From [Eubacterium] cellulosolvens LD2006 (GTDB lineage Bacteria > Bacillota > Clostridia > Lachnospirales > Lachnospiraceae): DNA of 64,000 nucleotides. The stretch lies in the NCBI RefSeq assembly GCF_000621585.1, contig NZ_JHXY01000011.1, positions 1 through 64,000 on the forward strand, written 5' to 3'. Positions 1,801 through 25,384 of this stretch are shown here, one piece after another. The number at the start of each line of letters is the position of its first letter. Position 1 is the stretch's first letter. The notes under the pieces were generated by a model. It was not told the origin of the DNA. It saw only the letters and a list, made by a program, of their open reading frames with translations, and did not search any database. The position numbers were made by a program, and so were the translations under genes.

Positions 1801-2038
1801 GCGGAAGGCGGCAGAGCATACAAAGCGAACGATAGGAGCGGAGGGTGCTGAACGTCCGGGGGACGTTCGTTTAGCACCGACCGGAGCGGAGCGTAGACGT
1901 GCATGCTTGAGCCCGCTTTGGACAACGCCCGAAGGGCATAAGACAAAGCGGGTGAGTTTGCGAAGAGCACCTGCATTAGGCGGCAGAGCGCTGAGGACGA
2001 GAGCGACGTGTTCGCGTGTATACTCTACCGTCTTCCGC
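1801..2038 (+). ncRNA. structured repeat element, copy 1
   Basis: About 238 bases fold into a closed multi-branch structure. The closing stem GCGGAAG (1801-1807) pairs with CTTCCGC (2032-2038). A hairpin at 1844-1878 pairs GGTGCT with AGCACC and AACGTCC with GGACGTT. A second branch pairs 1912-1920 with 1944-1952 and carries an inner GCCC/GGGC hairpin at 1927-1937. The 3' part, GAGCGCTGAGGACGAGAGCG and following, is near-identical to copy 2 at 15308-15631. Stem sequences differ between the copies by compensatory changes. It lies between the icd terminator and the end of the opposing ABC-F gene. No protein is credible. It may be a non-coding RNA or a mobile palindromic element. Confidence 0.6.
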
Positions 2039-2064: not shown

Positions 2065-3990
2065 TTACAGCTGCGACGAAACCTCTTCCCACTTCTCGTA
2101 GAGTCCCTCCAGCCTTTCATTGTTCGCTGTCTGTTCTTTGGAGAGTTTCTGGCACTTCGGAAGATCGGTGCCGGTCTCCGGTTTCAGAAATTCTTCGTCG
2201 ATTTCCCGGTTTCTGTCTTCCAGTTCCCCGATTTCTTTTTCGATTTTTTTGATCTCGTTTTCAATCTTGCGGATTCGAGCCTGTTCCTCCTTCTGGGCTT
2301 TCCAGTCCAGTTTGCCGGCTGTGTCGCCTGCCTGATTCGTTTCGGCGCTGTCGTCGGCAGGAGTGGCTGCGTAGATTGCTGTCAGTTCATCTTTTTTCTC
2401 CAGGTAGTAATCATAATTTCCGATGTAGTTTACCAGTGTCCGGTTGTTCAGGTCGATGATTCTGGTTGCGGTCTGGTTGATGAAGTAACGGTCGTGGCTG
2501 ACATAGAGCACGGTTCCGGTGTATTCATTCAGGGCGTCTTCCAGAATCTCCTTGGAGATAATATCCAGATGGTTGGTAGGCTCGTCCAGAATCAGAAGAT
2601 TTGCCTCGGAGAGCATGAGTCTCGCCAGGGATACGCGGCCGCGCTCGCCTCCGGAGAGGGATTTGATGAGCTTGAAGACGTCGTCGTTGGTAAAAAGGAA
2701 GGCGGCCAGGACATTCCGGATCTCTGTATTTGACAGAGTCGGATAGTCATCCGAGATCTGTTCAAAAATGGTCTTGGAGGGATCCAGAAGCTGCTGTTCC
2801 TGATCATAATAACCAATGTGCACTTTGGAACCGAAGGTTACGGTTCCGGCATCAGGCTCCAGAAGTCCTGTGAGGATCTTCAGGATGGTGGACTTACCGG
2901 TACCGTTGTTTCCGATAATGGCGACGCGCTCCCCGCGCTTGATCTCAAAACTCTGATCGGTGAACAGAGGAAGATTCGGGAAGGATTTGGTGAGCCCCTT
3001 TACCGTGAGGACATCTTTTCCACTCTCCGTGCGTGGATGTAGTTCGATGCGCATATCGGCGCTGACTTCTGCCGGTTTTTCGATGAGGTCGATTTTGTCC
3101 AGCATTTTCTCACGGCTCTCCGCGCGCTTGATGGATTTTTCACGGTTGAACTGCTTGAGTTTTGTGATGACTGCTTCCTGGTGTTTGATCTCGTTCTGCT
3201 GTTTGAGCCAGGCGTTGTACTGGGACTTCCGGACGATGGCTTTTTTCTCACTGTAGGCGGAGTAGTTCCCGACAAAGGTCATGGAGCTTCCGTTTTCGAT
3301 CTCCACGACGCGGTTGACGATCCGGTTCAGGAAGTAACGGTCGTGGGAGACGATCAGGACGGTTCCAGCGTAGTTCAGAAGATAGGTCTCCAGCCACTCG
3401 ATGGAGGTGAGATCCAGGTGGTTGGTAGGCTCGTCCAGAAGAAGGACATCCGGCTTTGTGAGCAGGAGCTTGCCGAGAACCACCCGGGTCTTCTGTCCTC
3501 CGGAGAGTGTGGAAAGCCTGCGGTCAAAATCAGCTTCCGCAAAACCAAGACCCTTGAGTACGCCGGTGATCTCGCTCTCAACAGCATAACCGTTCTCCAG
3601 TTCAAAGCGATGACCCAGCTGTGTATATTTTTCCATCACACGGTCGTAGTCGCTGCCGGTGACGTTTTTCATTTGTTCTTCCATGCTGCGCAGTTCCTGT
3701 TCCATATCCAGAACGTACTGACGCGCCTTTTTTACTTCATTGTAGATTGTCTCGTCACCCTCCATCTCCTGATACTGAGCCAGATAGCCCAGTGTTTTTC
3801 CGTGGGTGAGGGTAACTTCGCCGGAATCCGGAGAGAGAGCTCCCGTAATGATTCGGAGAAGTGTGGATTTTCCGGCGCCGTTTACACCGATGAGAGCTGC
3901 CTTGTCGTGCTCCTCCAGGTGAAAGGAGACATCCTTCAGGATGGTCTCGGTGCCGAAAGACTTGCTTATATTCTGACAGGATAAAATCAT
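2065..3990 (-). CDS. ABC-F family ATPase (Uup/YdiF type)
   Basis: A 641-residue soluble protein with two ABC ATPase domains and no membrane segments, the ABC-F layout of proteins that act on the ribosome (translation factors or antibiotic protection). The first Walker A (G-V-N-G-A-G-K-S) is at residues 35-42, with the L-S-G-G-Q signature near 162 and D-E-P-T-N near 186. The second Walker A (G-N-N-G-T-G-K-S) is near 360, with L-S-G-G-E-R after it. A charged interdomain linker sits near 240-300, and a coiled-coil tail fills the last 80 residues or so. The frame is open upstream, but the ATG at 3990 has AGGAGG seven bases before it and gives the family start. It is divergent from rex, an arrangement also seen around B. 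subtilis ydiF. Confidence 0.92.
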   Translation of the reverse strand: MILSCQNISKSFGTETILKDVSFHLEEHDKAALIGVNGAGKSTLLRIITGALSPDSGEVTLTHGKTLGYLAQYQEMEGDETIYNEVKKARQYVLDMEQELRSMEEQMKNVTGSDYDRVMEKYTQLGHRFELENGYAVESEITGVLKGLGFAEADFDRRLSTLSGGQKTRVVLGKLLLTKPDVLLLDEPTNHLDLTSIEWLETYLLNYAGTVLIVSHDRYFLNRIVNRVVEIENGSSMTFVGNYSAYSEKKAIVRKSQYNAWLKQQNEIKHQEAVITKLKQFNREKSIKRAESREKMLDKIDLIEKPAEVSADMRIELHPRTESGKDVLTVKGLTKSFPNLPLFTDQSFEIKRGERVAIIGNNGTGKSTILKILTGLLEPDAGTVTFGSKVHIGYYDQEQQLLDPSKTIFEQISDDYPTLSNTEIRNVLAAFLFTNDDVFKLIKSLSGGERGRVSLARLMLSEANLLILDEPTNHLDIISKEILEDALNEYTGTVLYVSHDRYFINQTATRIIDLNNRTLVNYIGNYDYYLEKKDELTAIYAATPADDSAETNQAGDTAGKLDWKAQKEEQARIRKIENEIKKIEKEIGELEDRNREIDEEFLKPETGTDLPKCQKLSKEQTANNERLEGLYEKWEEVSSQL

Positions 3991-4020
3991 TCTGTTTCCT
4001 CCTATAAATCTGCCCTTCTC

Positions 4021-4048
4021 ATTATACTTGAAATATGACACAAAACAA
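4021..4048 (-). promoter_or_regulatory. SigA-type promoter of the ABC-F gene
   Basis: On the minus strand, TTGTTT (4043-4048) and a perfect TATAAT (4021-4026) are 16 bases apart, about 30 bases upstream of the start codon. Confidence 0.6.
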
Positions 4049-4070
4049 GGACGAGAAAGTCTTTCGAATT

Positions 4071-4088
4071 TTGTGATTTTTCTATCAA
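4071..4088 (+). promoter_or_regulatory. candidate Rex operator upstream of rex
   Basis: TTGTGA-N6-TATCAA is an 18-bp imperfect dyad. Its left half is exact against the Rex half-site TTGTGA, and its right half matches four of six. It sits just upstream of the rex -35 element and between two divergent promoters, so Rex could control both genes. Confidence 0.5.
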
Positions 4089-4093
4089 AGACC

Positions 4094-4122
4094 TTGATAA
4101 GATTTAGACAAAGATATATAAT
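4094..4122 (+). promoter_or_regulatory. SigA-type promoter of rex
   Basis: TTGATA (4094-4099) and a perfect TATAAT (4117-4122) are separated by 17 bases. The predicted transcript has a leader of about 20 bases. Confidence 0.75.
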
Positions 4123-4149
4123 ATATGTAATTTGAACGGAGGGCACCGT

Positions 4150-4803
4150 ATGGGACAGAAAGTAATTTCGAAAGCTGTTATTAAAAGACTCCCCCGATAT
4201 TACCGATATCTCGGAGAACTTCTGGATGCAGGTGTGGAGAGGATTTCTTCCGGTGAACTGAGTCAGCAGATGAAAGTCACTGCATCGCAGATTCGTCAGG
4301 ATCTGAATAATTTCGGCGGATTCGGGCAGCAGGGTTACGGTTACAATGTGTATTATCTTCGGACGGAAATTGCGAAGATCCTCGGTCTTGACCGGCCGCA
4401 CAAGATGATCATCATTGGAGCAGGAAATCTCGGACAGGCACTTGCCAACTACGCAAAGTTCGAGAAGAACAGTTTCCGTGTTGTTGGTCTCTTTGACAAT
4501 AACAAGGCACTTAAGCGGAAGATGGTTAGAGATATCCCGATCATGATGATCGATGAGCTCCCGGCCTTTCTTCAGAAGAATGATGTGGAGATTGCCGCGC
4601 TCACACTTCCGAAGGAGAATGCCATCGACATGGCTCAGATTCTGGTGGAGAACGGAATCCACGCGATCTGGAACTTCGCACACACAGATCTGAATCTGGT
4701 AGTACCGAAGACGGTGGCTGTGCAGAACGTCCACCTCTCAGAGAGCCTGATGCGTCTATCCTATAATCTCAAGACGCTGGAAGAAGAAGGAAAAATCAAA
4801 TAA
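4150..4803 (+). CDS. rex: redox-sensing transcriptional repressor Rex
   Basis: Cytoplasmic repressor that binds DNA when the NADH/NAD+ ratio is low and is released by NADH. In Clostridia it controls fermentation, hydrogenase and redox genes. The 217-residue protein has an N-terminal winged helix (about residues 1-80, with S-A-like helix T-A-S-Q-I-R-Q-D-L) and a Rossmann domain whose G-A-G-N-L-G nucleotide loop is at 90-95. It ends in the swapped C-terminal helix typical of the family. The frame is open from 4132, but the ATG at 4150 has CGGAGGG at ideal distance. A candidate Rex site in its own promoter suggests autoregulation. Confidence 0.96.
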   Translation: MGQKVISKAVIKRLPRYYRYLGELLDAGVERISSGELSQQMKVTASQIRQDLNNFGGFGQQGYGYNVYYLRTEIAKILGLDRPHKMIIIGAGNLGQALANYAKFEKNSFRVVGLFDNNKALKRKMVRDIPIMMIDELPAFLQKNDVEIAALTLPKENAIDMAQILVENGIHAIWNFAHTDLNLVVPKTVAVQNVHLSESLMRLSYNLKTLEEEGKIK

Positions 4804-12808: not shown

Positions 12809-13696
12809 ATGTACAAGATTTTGTCTGCAGAAAAGCTGAACGCAGTCATCTACAAAATGGTGGTTGAAGCGCCGCTAGTAGCCAAGCACTGTCTTCCCGG
12901 ACAGTTCATCATCGTCAAAGTAGGTGAAGAGGGCGAGAGAATTCCGCTCACGATCTGCGACTACGACAGAGAGGCAGGAACGATCACGATTGTTTTCCAG
13001 CCGATCGGACAGTCCACACAGAAAATGGCAGAGCTCAAAGCAGGAGATGCTTTCGACGACTTTGTCGGACCGCTCGGACGTCCGTCTGATCTCGTAGAAA
13101 CACCGATTGAGGAACTTAAGAAACGCAAAATGGTATTTATCGCGGGTGGCGTCGGAACCGCTCCGGTATACTGCCAGGTGAAATGGCTTCACGAAAATGG
13201 AATTACTGCAGATGTAATCATTGGTTGCAAGTCTCACGATATCCTCATCATGGAAGAGGACTTCAAGAAGGTGTCCAATCTGTATGTAACCACAGATGAC
13301 GGCTCCTATCAGAGAAAAGGTATGGTAACCCAGTGTCTGTCCGATCTGATCGATAAAGAAGGTAAGAAGTATGACTGGTGCGTAGCCATCGGTCCGATGA
13401 TCATGATGAAGTTCGTCTGCAAGATGACAGAAGAGTACGGAATCCACACAGTAGTCTCCATGAACCCGATCATGGTTGACGGAACAGGTATGTGCGGTGC
13501 CTGCCGTCTCGTTGTCGACGGCCAGGTGAAATTCGCCTGTGTAGACGGTCCGGAGTTTGACGGACACAAGGTGGATTTCGACGGCGCTATGAAGAGAATG
13601 AGAATGTACAAGACGGAAGAGGGCCGTGAGATCCTCAGGAAACAGGAAGGCGATACACACCATGGCGGCTGTGGTCATTGCGGAGGTGACGAATAA
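12809..13696 (+). CDS. nfnA: NfnA/SudB-type ferredoxin-NADP+ reductase small subunit
   Basis: Small subunit of the bifurcating NADH-dependent reduced ferredoxin:NADP+ oxidoreductase, also annotated as sulfide dehydrogenase beta or dihydroorotate-dehydrogenase electron-transfer-like subunit. The 295 residues have an FAD-binding barrel (R-I-P-L-T-I-C near 50), an NAD-binding domain (G-G-V-G-T-A-P-V near 113) and a C-terminal [2Fe-2S] cysteine cluster around 230-250 (M-C-G-A-C-R, then F-A-C-V-D-G-P-E-F). The tail contains an extra H-H-G-G-C-G-H-C-G-G segment. GGAGG stands five bases before the ATG at 12809. The stop overlaps the next start (TAATG), so the pair is translationally coupled. Confidence 0.9.
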   Translation: MYKILSAEKLNAVIYKMVVEAPLVAKHCLPGQFIIVKVGEEGERIPLTICDYDREAGTITIVFQPIGQSTQKMAELKAGDAFDDFVGPLGRPSDLVETPIEELKKRKMVFIAGGVGTAPVYCQVKWLHENGITADVIIGCKSHDILIMEEDFKKVSNLYVTTDDGSYQRKGMVTQCLSDLIDKEGKKYDWCVAIGPMIMMKFVCKMTEEYGIHTVVSMNPIMVDGTGMCGACRLVVDGQVKFACVDGPEFDGHKVDFDGAMKRMRMYKTEEGREILRKQEGDTHHGGCGHCGGDE

Positions 13697-15096
13697 TGGC
13701 AGTGGATATGATGAAAAAAGTACCCGTACGTGAGCAGGAGCCGAAGGTGCGTGCGACAAATTTTGACGAGGTTTGCCTCGGTTATTCTCAGGAAGAAGCC
13801 GTTGAAGAGGCGGCCAGATGTCTGAACTGTAAAAATCCGAAATGTGTAGAGGGATGTCCGGTACACATCAATATTCCGGGATTTATCGAGCAGATCAAGA
13901 CCGGAGATTTCAAGAAAGCATATGACGTCATCAGCGAGTCCAGTTCCCTGCCGGCTGTCTGCGGACGTGTTTGTCCTCAGGAGACACAGTGCGAGCAGAG
14001 ATGTATCCGCGGCATCAAGGGTGAGGCTGTATCCATCGGTAAGCTCGAGAGATTCACAGCCGACTGGGCAAAAGAGAATGGCGTAAAACCTACTCCGGCC
14101 GCAGAGAAAAATGGTCACAAGGTAGCTGTCATCGGAGCGGGCCCTGCAGGACTTACCTGCGCCGGCGACCTCGCGAAACTCGGATACGATGTTACCATCT
14201 ATGAGGCGCTCCACAAAGCCGGCGGCGTTCTTGCCTACGGTATTCCGGAGTTCCGTCTTCCGAAAGACAAAGTTGTAGAGAAAGAGATCGAGAACGTAAG
14301 AAGCCTCGGCGTAAAGATCGAGACGGATGCTGTCATTGGTCAGGCTACAACCGTGGACGAGCTCATGAATGAGGAAGGTTTCGAGGCTGTCTTCATCGGT
14401 TCCGGTGCAGGACTTCCGAGATTCATGAACATTCCGGGCGAGACAGCGCTCGGTGTATTCTCTGCGAATGAGTTCCTTACAAGAAACAATCTGATGAAGG
14501 CATACCGCGACGATTACTACACACCGATCCACAGAGGAAAGAAAGTGGTTGTAGTCGGCGGCGGTAACGTAGCGATGGACGCTGCCCGCACGGCACTCCG
14601 TCTCGGCGCTGAGGTACATATTGTTTACCGTCGTTCCGAGGAAGAGCTTCCGGCTCGTCGAGAGGAAGTTCATCACGCAAAAGAAGAGGGCATCATTTTT
14701 GATCTTCTCACAAACCCGGTAGAGATCATCGAGGACGAAGAGACCGGATGGGTAAAGGCAATCAAGTGTATCCGCATGGAGCTTGGCGAGCCGGATGCCT
14801 CCGGAAGACGCAGCCCGGTTGAGATTGAGGGATCCGAGTTCATCATCGACTGTGATACAGTAATCATGTCCCTTGGTACATCACCGAACCCGCTGATCTC
14901 TTCCACAACCGTGGGACTCGACATCAACAAGAGAAAATGTATCATTGCTGATGAAGAGAACGGAAAGACGACCAAAGAGGGCGTATTTGCCGGCGGTGAC
15001 GCAGTGACAGGAGCTGCAACAGTTATCCTCGCTATGGGCGCAGGAAAAGCTGCAGCCAAGGGAATTGATGAGTTTATCAAATCCCAAAATGCCTGA
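13696..15096 (+). CDS. nfnB: NfnB/GltD-like NADPH-dependent large subunit
   Basis: Large subunit of NfnAB, which couples exergonic NADP+ reduction by NADH to reduced ferredoxin in anaerobes. The 466-residue protein is GltD-like. Two N-terminal [4Fe-4S] cysteine sets are visible: C42, C45, C50 and C54, then C89, C93, C99 and C103. An FAD loop (G-A-G-P-A-G-L) is near 147 and the NADP loop (G-G-G-N-V-A-M-D) near 290. The end carries the second FAD segment, G-G-D-A-V-T-G-A-A. Alternatives are glutamate synthase small subunit or homotetrameric SudA. The coupled upstream nfnA makes NfnB the best call. Confidence 0.9.
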   Translation: MAVDMMKKVPVREQEPKVRATNFDEVCLGYSQEEAVEEAARCLNCKNPKCVEGCPVHINIPGFIEQIKTGDFKKAYDVISESSSLPAVCGRVCPQETQCEQRCIRGIKGEAVSIGKLERFTADWAKENGVKPTPAAEKNGHKVAVIGAGPAGLTCAGDLAKLGYDVTIYEALHKAGGVLAYGIPEFRLPKDKVVEKEIENVRSLGVKIETDAVIGQATTVDELMNEEGFEAVFIGSGAGLPRFMNIPGETALGVFSANEFLTRNNLMKAYRDDYYTPIHRGKKVVVVGGGNVAMDAARTALRLGAEVHIVYRRSEEELPARREEVHHAKEEGIIFDLLTNPVEIIEDEETGWVKAIKCIRMELGEPDASGRRSPVEIEGSEFIIDCDTVIMSLGTSPNPLISSTTVGLDINKRKCIIADEENGKTTKEGVFAGGDAVTGAATVILAMGAGKAAAKGIDEFIKSQNA

Positions 15097-15307: not shown

Positions 15308-15631
15308 CCGCGGCAGGAACAGAGTCATGCAAAGCGAACACTTGGAAGCGAAGGGTGCTGAACGTCCGGGGGACGTTCGTTTAGCACCGACCGTAGCAGT
15401 GCGGAGACCGAAGCGCGAGTATAGCAGCGGGTGCGGCGCTGAACGTCCGGGGGACGTTCGTTTAGCGCGGACCGTAGCGGAGCGAAGACGTCCATGTTTG
15501 AGCGCACTTTGTACATCGCCCGAAGGGCATTTGAACAAAGTGCGTGAGTTTTGGCGAAGCACCCGCAATAAGCGACGGAGCGCTGAGGACGAGAGCGACG
15601 TGTTCGCGTGTATGCTCTGGTTCTGCCGCGG
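15308..15631 (+). ncRNA. structured repeat element, copy 2
   Basis: About 324 bases related to 1801-2038. The closing stem CCGCGGCAG (15308-15316) pairs with CTGCCGCGG (15623-15631). The AACGTCC/GGACGTT hairpin occurs twice, at 15354-15388 and 15435-15469, so one module is duplicated relative to copy 1. The next branch pairs 15503-15512 with 15535-15544 and holds GCCC/GGGC at 15518-15528. Relative to copy 1 the stems carry paired substitutions (for example CCCGCTTTG/CAAAGCGGG against CGCACTTTG/CAAAGTGCG). It ends 43 bases before rlmH and might be part of that transcript's leader. A reading frame runs through it into rlmH but has no ribosome site and is not credible as protein. Confidence 0.6.
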
Positions 15632-15674: not shown

Positions 15675-16154
15675 ATGAAAATAACAGTTGCATGTGTAGG
15701 AAAAATCAAAGAAAAATATCTGACTGCGGGAATTGCCGAGTATGCCAAGCGGCTTGGCAGGTACTGCACACTGAAGATTGCGGAGGTGGCGGATGAGAAG
15801 ACGCCGGACGGCGCCTCGGAAGCTCTGGAGAAAGCAATCAAGGTCAAAGAGGGTGAGAGGCTTCTGAAAGTGATTCCGGATAATGCCTATGTCGTTGCCC
15901 TTGCCATCGATGGCGATATGCTTGATTCCGTGCAGCTCTCCGAGAAGATCGCGGATCTCACTGTCCGTGGCGTGAGCCATATCGTCTTTGTGATCGGCGG
16001 CTCCCTGGGTCTGGCTGACGAGGTGCTCTCGAGGGCGGATATGAAACTCAGTTTTTCGAAGATGACGTTTCCGCACCAGCTCATGCGGATGATCCTTCTG
16101 GAGCAGATCTACCGGAGTTTCCGCATTCAGAATCATGAGCCATACCATAAGTAA
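15675..16154 (+). CDS. rlmH: 23S rRNA pseudouridine-1915 N3-methyltransferase RlmH
   Basis: SPOUT-class methyltransferase that modifies pseudouridine 1915 in helix 69 of 23S rRNA, acting on assembled 70S ribosomes. The 159-residue length is exactly typical. The trefoil-knot SAM site is visible as I-G-G-S-L-G-L near residue 106, and the conserved C-terminal Q-I-Y-R-S-F-R-I...H-E-P-Y-H-K is complete. The ATG at 15675 is preceded by AGGGG and gives the family start M-K-I-T-V. The longer in-frame extension back to 15327 is translation of the structured repeat and is rejected. Confidence 0.96.
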   Translation: MKITVACVGKIKEKYLTAGIAEYAKRLGRYCTLKIAEVADEKTPDGASEALEKAIKVKEGERLLKVIPDNAYVVALAIDGDMLDSVQLSEKIADLTVRGVSHIVFVIGGSLGLADEVLSRADMKLSFSKMTFPHQLMRMILLEQIYRSFRIQNHEPYHK

Positions 16155-22870: not shown

Positions 22871-25384
22871 ATGAGATCGATTGAAGTACTCGATAAACAG
22901 ACGATTGACCAGATTGCCGCCGGCGAAGTTGTAGAGCGGCCGGCGTCTGTGATCAAGGAGCTCACGGAGAACGCGATCGACGCGGGTGCCACGGCGGTGA
23001 CGATTGAGATCCGCGACGGCGGAACAACCTTCATGCGGATCACGGACAACGGCGCGGGCATTCCGGCGGATCAGATAAAAAAGGCCTTTCTTCGCCACGC
23101 GACCAGCAAGATCCGGAAGGCGGAGGATCTGGTAAACATCGCCTCCCTCGGTTTCCGCGGAGAGGCTCTCTCGAGTATCTCCGCCGTTGCGCAGGTGGAA
23201 TGTATCACCAAGACGCCCGAGGCACTGACCGGCGTCCGCTACTGCATCGAGGGCGGCGTGGAAAAAGAGTATGAGGAGATCGGCGCGCCCGGGGGCACGA
23301 CGTTTATCATCCGCAATCTCTTCTTCAATACGCCGGCCAGGGCGAAGTTTTTGAAATCCCCGGTGACCGAGGGAAATCATGTGAGCTCCTTTGTCGAGGA
23401 GCTGGCGCTCTCACATCCGGAAATCTCGTTCAAATACATCCAGAACGGGCAGAACAAACTCTACACGAGTGGAAACGGAAATCTCAAAGAGATCGTCTAT
23501 CAGATTTTCGGTAGAGACCTCACGAGGGAACTGGTGGCTGTCGACCAGCAGACGGAGCTGATGCATGTGCACGGCTTCATCGGCAATCCGAATGTCGCCA
23601 GAGGAAACCGCGCCTTTGAGAACTATTTTATCAACGGCAGATATGTGAAGAACAAGGTGATTGCGAAAGCGATCGAGGACGCTTATCACGGCTTTCTGAT
23701 GCAGCACAAATATCCGTTTACCCTTCTGTATCTGGATATTGTGAGTGAGAAGGTCGATGTCAATGTTCATCCCCAGAAGCTGGAGGTTCGAATCTCCGAT
23801 CAGGAGGGCGTGTATCATCAGCTCTGCCTGACGATTCAGAATGCCCTGATGAACCGCGAGAGGATTCCGGAGGTTCCGGTCGGAAGAGAGAATCCGGAAG
23901 CCGCAAGACGAAAAGAGAGAGAACGGCTTTCCCGGATGAACCGAGGTGTTCCGGAGCCCTTCGAGGGAAACCACCGGTCTGCGTTGGCCGCATCGTCCGG
24001 CCGGGGGGATGCTTCCGTTTCCGGGGCAGGTTCCGCAGCCGGGGCGATTCCGTCTTCGCCGCTGGACGCGCTTCAGAAGAGAGGTGAGGGAACGGAGAAC
24101 AGATCGATTCCTTCGTCACCGTTGGACGCGCTTCCCAGAAGAGGCGTGGAAACGGAGAACAGATCGATTCCTTCGTCACCGTTGGACGCGCTTCCCAGAA
24201 GAGGCGTGGAAACAGAGAACAGAGCGATCCTGGCATCGCCGCTGGATGCGCTTCCCGGAAGAAACGAAGGTTCGGGGGCGGATCTGATTCCCGAGATTCC
24301 CGGATCACCGCTGGATTTGCTTCCTAAGCGAACAGAAGCTGCGACAGATGTATCGTTGGCTCAGTCGGGAATCGTCGATGAGCCTTCCGCTGTATCGGAA
24401 GATCGCTCTGCCGACAGCCGTGTAACCGGCGGTGGATCGCTCTCTGTCGACAGTGCGGCAACCGGCAGCAGTGGATCGCTCTCTGCCGACAGTGCGGCAA
24501 CCGGCAGCGGGGAAGCGCTCTCTGCCGACAGCCGTGCAACCGGCAACGGTGGATCGATCTACCTCGACAGCAGGGCAACCGGCAGCAAAGAAACGATCTA
24601 CACTGACAGCGGAGCAACCGGCAGTTGTGAATTACGGGAGAGTTCTGCTTCCTACACGGGAAATGAGGGGCCGGAAACATCCGGATCCAAAGAGAGCTCC
24701 GGAGAGGATTCCCTGCGCGAAGCCGGGAACCCGGCAGGTAAGGTCAGCGGCCGGAAACCGGAGCAGCTGAATCTTTTTGAGGAGGACAAGGTTCTCTCCG
24801 AGCAGGCGAGACAGATGTTCCGGTTGATCGGTCAGGTGTTTGATACCTACTGGCTGATCGAATACAGGGATGCTCTCTACATCATCGACCAGCATGCGGC
24901 TCACGAGAAAGTGAACTACGAGCGGATGATGAAGGACTACCGGGAGAAAACGATTCACTCCCAGATGCTCTATCCTTCGATCGTTCTCGACCTGAGCAGA
25001 CGGGAGGCACAGCTTCTGGAGTCCAATCTCAAGGCCTTTGAGGATCTCGGATTTGAGGTGGAGTCTTTCGGAGGAAATTCGTTCAAGATCAACGCCGTGC
25101 CGGCGAATCTCTATTCCGTCGCCTCGGACGAGTTGTTTATGCAGATCCTTGCGGAGCTGGAGAGTCTCGGAGAGATTTCCCCGAAGCTGATTCCGGAGAA
25201 ACTGGCGTCGATGTCCTGCAAGGCAGCGGTGAAGGGAAACAATACCCTCTCCGTACCGGAGGCAAACGCGCTGATCGATGAGCTGCTGACGCTGGAGAAT
25301 CCCTACAACTGTCCGCACGGAAGACCGACCATCGTATCCATGACCAGATACGAGATGGATAAGAAATTCAAGAGAATTGTCTGA
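22871..25384 (+). CDS. mutL: DNA mismatch repair endonuclease MutL with repeat-expanded linker
   Basis: Couples mismatch recognition by MutS to strand nicking. The 837 residues are unusually long; 600-680 is common in the phylum. The GHKL ATPase (1 to about 330) shows E-N-A-I-D-A-G and D-N-G-A-G-I. The C-terminal endonuclease domain shows D-Q-H-A-A-H-E-K-V-N-Y-E near 675 and C-P-H-G-R-P-T near 815, so it is the nicking type. The extra length is a linker (about 345-620). One part is built from five near-20-residue units of the form I-P-S-S-P-L-D-A-L-P. The other part is built from 12-14-residue units like S-A-D-S-A-A-T-G-S-G. Frame and key residues are intact. Confidence 0.95.
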   Translation: MRSIEVLDKQTIDQIAAGEVVERPASVIKELTENAIDAGATAVTIEIRDGGTTFMRITDNGAGIPADQIKKAFLRHATSKIRKAEDLVNIASLGFRGEALSSISAVAQVECITKTPEALTGVRYCIEGGVEKEYEEIGAPGGTTFIIRNLFFNTPARAKFLKSPVTEGNHVSSFVEELALSHPEISFKYIQNGQNKLYTSGNGNLKEIVYQIFGRDLTRELVAVDQQTELMHVHGFIGNPNVARGNRAFENYFINGRYVKNKVIAKAIEDAYHGFLMQHKYPFTLLYLDIVSEKVDVNVHPQKLEVRISDQEGVYHQLCLTIQNALMNRERIPEVPVGRENPEAARRKERERLSRMNRGVPEPFEGNHRSALAASSGRGDASVSGAGSAAGAIPSSPLDALQKRGEGTENRSIPSSPLDALPRRGVETENRSIPSSPLDALPRRGVETENRAILASPLDALPGRNEGSGADLIPEIPGSPLDLLPKRTEAATDVSLAQSGIVDEPSAVSEDRSADSRVTGGGSLSVDSAATGSSGSLSADSAATGSGEALSADSRATGNGGSIYLDSRATGSKETIYTDSGATGSCELRESSASYTGNEGPETSGSKESSGEDSLREAGNPAGKVSGRKPEQLNLFEEDKVLSEQARQMFRLIGQVFDTYWLIEYRDALYIIDQHAAHEKVNYERMMKDYREKTIHSQMLYPSIVLDLSRREAQLLESNLKAFEDLGFEVESFGGNSFKINAVPANLYSVASDELFMQILAELESLGEISPKLIPEKLASMSCKAAVKGNNTLSVPEANALIDELLTLENPYNCPHGRPTIVSMTRYEMDKKFKRIV
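24044..24335 (+). repeat. 60-bp tandem repeat inside mutL
   Basis: Five consecutive units of about 60 bases encode S-P-L-D-A-L-P-R-R-type blocks. The two units at 24106-24225 are nearly identical over 60 bases, which points to recent duplication. The outer units are degenerate. Confidence 0.85.
24412..24640 (+). repeat. 36-42-bp degenerate tandem repeat inside mutL
   Basis: Six units with a core of gacagc-gcaaccggcagc encode (S/T/L)-D-S-x-A-T-G-S-x-x-(S/T) blocks. They differ in length and sequence, unlike the cleaner array just upstream. Confidence 0.75.

Follow-up and report, generated by a model that had tools for sequence, protein, structure and literature searches.

In the sections of its description consulted, the BOX element of Streptococcus pneumoniae is a modular intergenic repeat whose boxB hairpin occurs in zero to several copies, and which combines a stable fold and an excess between convergent genes with the lack of a transposase of its own (PMC3049150). 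REP and CGTC-tagged repeats and REPINs are presented, in the part of PMC3733652 consulted, as intergenic palindromes of 20–40 bp that carry a tag tetranucleotide and form head-to-head dimers, the CGTC-type palindromic repeats being without known transposase. Template switching between inverted repeats is described, in the portions consulted, as homogenising arms and inverting spacers (PMC8604942), and as accounting for compensatory changes of several bases and for inverted loops in RNA genes (PMC8794818). Here we analyse a repeat, element A, first noticed as two copies in the window (the whole stretch of 64,000 nucleotides of [Eubacterium] cellulosolvens LD2006 DNA that was studied). It is probably a palindromic DNA repeat, dispersed and non-autonomous, that belongs to Lachnospiraceae and whose arms are kept matched by template switching. 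No description of the family was found in the open literature searched, and it is apparently undescribed so far.

Copy 1 spans 1801–2038 of the window on the plus strand, between the converging genes for isocitrate dehydrogenase (380–1639, +) and an ABC-F ATPase (2065–4734, −). Its closing stem P1 pairs GCGGAAG (1801–1807) with CTTCCGC (2032–2038) and encloses a single H module (1844–1898, a 35-nt hairpin followed by a 20-nt tail), an apical arm (1912–1952) formed by CCCGCTTTG at 1912–1920 and CAAAGCGGG at 1944–1952, and the 3′ half of the conserved core loop, TTAGGCGGCAGAGCGCT (1976–1992). The 5′ half of the core motif is missing, and by comparison with copies bearing two H modules, the sequence of copy 1 looks like the outcome of a deletion between two H modules or a fusion of two H units. 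Copy 2 (15308–15631, +) lies downstream of a glutamate synthase-like gene (13696–15096) and upstream of the gene for RlmH, a 23S rRNA methyltransferase (15675–16154, +). Its P1 pairs CCGCGGCAG (15308–15316) with CTGCCGCGG (15623–15631), and it carries a first H module with GGTGCT/AGCACC (15354–15408; hairpin 15354–15388), a second with GGCGCT/AGCGCG (15435–15489; hairpin 15435–15469), an apical arm (15503–15544) of CGCACTTTG (15503–15511) and CAAAGTGCG (15536–15544), and the 3′ half of the core loop, AATAAGCGACGGAGCGCT (15567–15584), all on the plus strand. Elsewhere in the window, two in-register direct-repeat blocks (24045–24284 and 24430–24631, with 60-nt and 39-nt units) are probably repeats inside a coding region.

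Both copies are hairpin rods with paired closing stems specific to each locus. Their folds are far better than those of dinucleotide shuffles (copy 1: z −6.54, 0 of 200 shuffles as good; copy 2: z −8.03, 0 of 100), and both match R1, a covariance model trained on ten other copies of the window genome with copies 1 and 2 left out (115.3 bits, E 6.5e-31, and 110 bits, E 2e-29, respectively; these E-values are rough). The earlier note had reported two structured copies diverging by paired substitutions in three stems. The copies and the quoted stems are indeed there, and the paired divergence holds for the closing stem (GCGGAAG/CTTCCGC against the two P1 arms of copy 2) and for the branch that forms the apical arm. 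The third difference, GGTGCT/AGCACC against GCGCT/AGCGC, really compares two different H hairpins, and because copy 2 has both H types and copy 1 only one, it is no clean one-site compensatory change.

Read in the A sense, the element is an unbranched rod in which variable, nearly perfect stems surround three conserved unpaired motifs. From the outside inward, the locus-specific closing stem is followed by a stem around AGAGYATAC/GTATRCTCT, an internal loop with AACGATAGG opposite GACGTGT, another stem, the core loop with CGAGCATAG opposite AATAGGCGGCG[C/G]AG, a free stem, and the third unpaired motif, TGTYTGAG opposite GAGTTTG, beyond which lies the apical hairpin. Across 94 hits the conserved letters are confined almost wholly to the loops, some of those in the core having been pre-set by the pattern used to collect the copies, and the stems use all four Watson-Crick pairs. 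The element spans 170–325 nt between arm ends, its ends vary from species to species, and five copies (L010, L016, the second copy of L027, L028 and L031) have a different inner arm. G280 is an AT-rich genome; its A stems are AT-rich too, and the loop motifs, by reading, are still recognisable.

The supposition that the two copies belong to a multi-copy family was borne out: many more were found in the genome and in related Lachnospiraceae. Element A occupies 43 places in the 3.3-Mb window genome, a total that merges BLAST pieces with 35 matches of a second model, R2, and in which two entries include fragments; three places where H lies in a different repeat, B, are not counted, and one A split by B counts as one. 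Within the bacterial family, R1 finds the element in at least 7 of 150 genomes and R2 in at least 38 of 299 (38 of 298 genera, window genome included); these are lower bounds, with 15 and 8 candidates per genome scored under strict filters, and some training loci of R2 come from genomes later searched. Outside the family, a phylum-wide sample of 299 genomes, a few of them belonging to the same family, gave only two weak matches (G365, E 6.2e-7; G449, E 1.4e-4). The core pattern occurs in 87 stretches in named genomes, and among the 80 listed, 78 come from Lachnospiraceae, Blautia, Eubacterium or other Eubacteriales MAGs; R1 matches these 78 and not the two proteobacterial ones (L131 and L191), which were left out of all counts for lack of a model match. 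Copy 1 had no BLAST match among plasmids and phages, and exact patterns for the short-arm core and for H each found 0 viral contigs.

Covariation, which the earlier note had proposed to look for, is strong. In the alignment fitted to the model, 96.2% of cells are paired, 45 of 52 pairs show double changes, and the covariation score is 0.653 against at most 0.085 in slid controls; a MAFFT alignment, A1, also covaries (25 of 57 pairs; 0.345 against at most 0.110). Extreme pairing and covariation in both alignments, together with free stems bearing conserved loops, the classic look of a functional RNA, speak for copies that are genes for a structured non-coding RNA, in which a transcribed rod would bind a protein or ligand through its loops and its fold would be selected. 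We consider this unlikely.

If an A-strand RNA is selected, its stems are expected to hold more G.T than A.C mismatches. In mismatch-neutral alignments, obtained after 57 of 164 candidate elements had been dropped for arms that failed to pair, the outer arms of 107 elements hold 39 G.T and 27 A.C, a ratio that depends on the flank rule (47:45 when looser, 27:20 when stricter), and the inner stems of 100 elements hold 5 and 4. Taken together, 44 against 31 (p 0.17) is near symmetry, with no clear strand preference. By comparison, 54 terminator-like hairpins from the same DNA have 19 G.T against 5 A.C (p 0.007). These controls were chosen by a rule different from that used for A, and the difference between the two ratios is not decisive; the G.T rate per Watson-Crick pair, 0.65% in A against 3.7% in the control hairpins (about six-fold), is the firmer comparison. 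The model-fitted alignment, which itself favours G.U, gives 60 G.T against 35 A.C in the free stems (p 0.013) and a strong G.T excess at loop-side pairs (67:11, 16:0 and 33:2). This excess leans towards RNA or towards one strand, and it keeps the RNA explanation alive despite the bias of the alignment.

Further observations count against an RNA gene. Among co-directional neighbours, A points the same way as the genes in 9 cases and the opposite way in 8, so its direction is independent of theirs, and insertions of H are tolerated at three places. At gathering score, Rfam has no match over element A in the window or in 10 loci of other genomes, and for copy 1 nothing credible was found over the element at E up to 10. 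In one MAG, an A copy is preceded, at a distance of about 200 nt, by a GA-cis RNA (RF02987; L147 3216–3298).

Orthologous sites reveal how the arms change. Two loci that are orthologous by one flank (L124/L134) show no difference in 110 alignment columns that run through the core, and in their outer arms whole blocks have changed and 2-nt insertions on one arm have a counterpart on the other. In the related genome G012, the closing stem at the copy 2 site is the same but encloses an inverted body, and a second inverted body, with a changed closing stem, is seen in L242/L261. Inversion is thus found at 2 of 6 comparable orthologous sites, those without it being L119/L254, L197/L201, L124/L134 and L244/L263; paralogous Lapin pairs, one-sided L247 pairs and pairs about 70% identical were left out of the comparison. 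L244/L263, once a candidate for a flipped body, is really a head-to-head copy added next to one with an internal deletion. In G012 the copy 2 site is also split over two contigs (L240 on C63 and L241 on C4) with differing partner arms, the result of either an A-mediated rearrangement or a break in the assembly. At the copy 1 site in G012 only the arms remain, the interior having been deleted between 5-bp repeats. Near-equal G.T and A.C, changes of whole blocks and indels that are paired across the arms, and inverted bodies together are better explained by template switching in DNA than by selection on RNA; the earlier argument that pair-preserving divergence indicates selection on an RNA fold is therefore unsupported. 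Ordinary recombination between A copies could be an alternative source of the inverted or replaced bodies.

As we picture it for a non-autonomous DNA repeat, polymerase template switching would copy one arm from the other, so that stems stay perfect, and would thereby produce both the paired changes that resemble compensation and the inversions of the body. Arm correction alone would erase the loops, so their retention calls for selection on the fold and for something that recognises it. The unpaired motifs are retained in 38 sampled genera whose base compositions differ widely, a pattern of sequence that would imply recognition of a fold, as DNA or as RNA. A cellular enzyme acting in trans may read the conserved motifs in DNA that is folded or extruded, and would move single A elements or head-to-head pairs; copies would survive best close to gene ends. 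To our knowledge no mobilising enzyme for element A has been described. A distinctly improbable variant is a new class of mobile element whose core is recognised and copied in its folded form, be it RNA or an extruded DNA hairpin; hairpin-primed copying would then give perfect arms and flip-flop inversion at once, through an enzyme common in Lachnospiraceae.

The alternative raised in the earlier note, a palindromic mobile element, gains support from near-identical copies at unrelated sites, which indicate that element A spreads. Three copies in G280 are 97.2–99.6% identical over 237–252 bp and three in G335 are 97.7–99.6% identical over 243–260 bp, and in both genomes the similarity stops sharply. 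The end motifs of these copies are far more frequent than reversed-pattern controls (50 against 1 and 102 against 12), and most of the places opened in the two genomes hold other small palindromes, which in some cases are A lacking the core; none holds a gene-bearing unit. Direct repeats of 3–8 nt that would mark target duplication show no excess in 64 elements, whose ends, taken from the pairing, may be a few bases off, and no clean empty site was found. Around 171 recorded positions, which include repeat sightings of one site in overlapping loci, no transposase-like neighbour recurs among the 568 stop-to-stop ORFs that lie up to 2.5 kb away; the groups of neighbouring ORFs read as common superfamilies (transporters, kinases) or as ORFs derived from A. 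In G280 (L394–L402) there are many palindromes of 50–110 bp with GACAAACGCATGAAT ends, some of which are core-deleted A, and in G335 (L403–L407) unrelated palindromes stand in arrays with GTATAC/GTATAG junctions and end motifs common with A there.

Close pairs of A have a marked polarity: of 23 with gaps up to 700 bp, counted by hand in at least 8 genomes and with partial fragments beside elements excluded as dimers, 20 are head-to-head (5′-5′), 3 are tandem and 0 are 3′-3′, and in several species the two partners belong to different subtypes. This arrangement, an intergenic palindrome in head-to-head dimers without target duplication, would suit a repeat of the REP/REPIN type with a REP-associated tyrosine transposase (Y1, RAYT) as its mover, and the A pairs of one species, UBA4348, sit in repeats whose ends resemble hairpin-tipped GGGGACAGTCC sequences, which may be like RAYT-type ends. 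The distribution of the enzyme makes such a mover very unlikely. No Y1_Tnp (PF01797) match was found in 12 of 30 carrier genomes, among them G320, a single contig with 33 copies, and G335, which has near-identical copies; as a general mover Y1/RAYT is refuted, unless the gene was recently lost from these carriers. In the window genome the only full-length Y1 gene stands in a 3.4-kb locus without A, A is several-fold longer than REP, and its orientation shows no replication-strand bias (15 of 28; 42 of 73).

Strand and gene context were counted for 28 of the 43 places in the window genome, with neighbours called by coding score, and no gene-like ORF spans any of the 28 copies; in another genome (L099), A overlaps the end of an ORF. 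The arrangement is co-directional for 17 copies, convergent for 10 and divergent for 1, compared with 116, 13 and 19 of the 148 A-free gaps of 60 nt or more, an excess between convergent genes (10 of 28 against 13 of 148, p 0.0006) with a divergent deficit at p 0.21. One copy in the window genome adjoins recA. The convergent excess, with A often within 50 nt of a gene end, is what a bidirectional transcription terminator or a stabiliser of mRNA 3′ ends would show, which as the main role of A is extremely improbable: a T-run after the stem is not consistent at 64 ends, A is also found where the flanking genes all run on one strand, as with addA and addB (L098) or adk and secY (L107, window genome), the G.T content of A differs from that of terminator-like hairpins, and the conserved loops are left unexplained.

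The H module (55 nt, its hairpin and tail as in copy 1) has up to three insertion places in A, and some copies have no H. Of the 22 H hairpins in the window genome, assigned by reading, 19 lie inside A and 3 inside repeat B, and in other genomes of the family H stands outside A (L037–L044) with its inner stem altered on both sides. At one site orthologous between G000 and G012 the A bodies are nearly identical except that H is present in G012, with no target duplication beside it; the 5′ flank there is hardly alignable. In L039 and L041, H adjoins tRNA genes, next to duplicated tRNA 3′ sequence. Repeat B (L032, L033 and L016, in the window genome outside the window) is about 200 bp long with AGTATA-type inverted ends; at three places H sits midway along it, and one A copy is interrupted by a B.

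Element A forms a large family of repeats among bacteria that make up a dominant group in the gut, and its fold is kept over 38 sampled genera. It also serves as a warning, for covariation this strong is usually taken to prove a functional RNA, yet stem evolution here looks largely DNA-driven. A reader of the conserved loops, if found, could reveal a new mobilising or hairpin-processing enzyme.

By analogy, we would call element A closest to BOX in build and to REP and MITEs in behaviour. As far as the consulted text on BOX extends (PMC3049150), the two are alike in architecture only: both are composite and modular, with a stable fold, an excess between convergent genes and no transposase of their own, whereas A differs in sequence and fold, spans many genera, combines three conserved unpaired motifs with perfect arms that are long and vary by locus, and carries H at separate positions, not as a tandem array. 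Like the REP and REPIN sequences of the part of PMC3733652 consulted, A is an intergenic palindrome in many copies with inverted dimers (20 of 23 close pairs); unlike them, it measures roughly 180–360 bp, has no end tag constant across species, and lacks RAYT in 12 of 30 carriers. With MITEs it shares short, non-coding, dispersed near-identical copies with terminal inverted repeats, and, in G280 and G335, end motifs common to many other small palindromes; it departs from them in showing no target duplication and, among the neighbours and opened places covered, no autonomous partner, in ends that are inconstant between species, and in a conserved core that sits in the middle of the element. Its matched arms, multi-base paired changes and inverted spacers are as predicted by template-switch mutation, which is a mutation process and not an element family, and in the consulted parts of PMC8604942 and PMC8794818 the inverted spacers of yeast measure 2–5 bp, against some 100–300 nt in A. 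Two features that define REPIN/RAYT and one that defines MITEs were not found in it, and we set element A apart as a new family that is BOX-, REP- and MITE-like.
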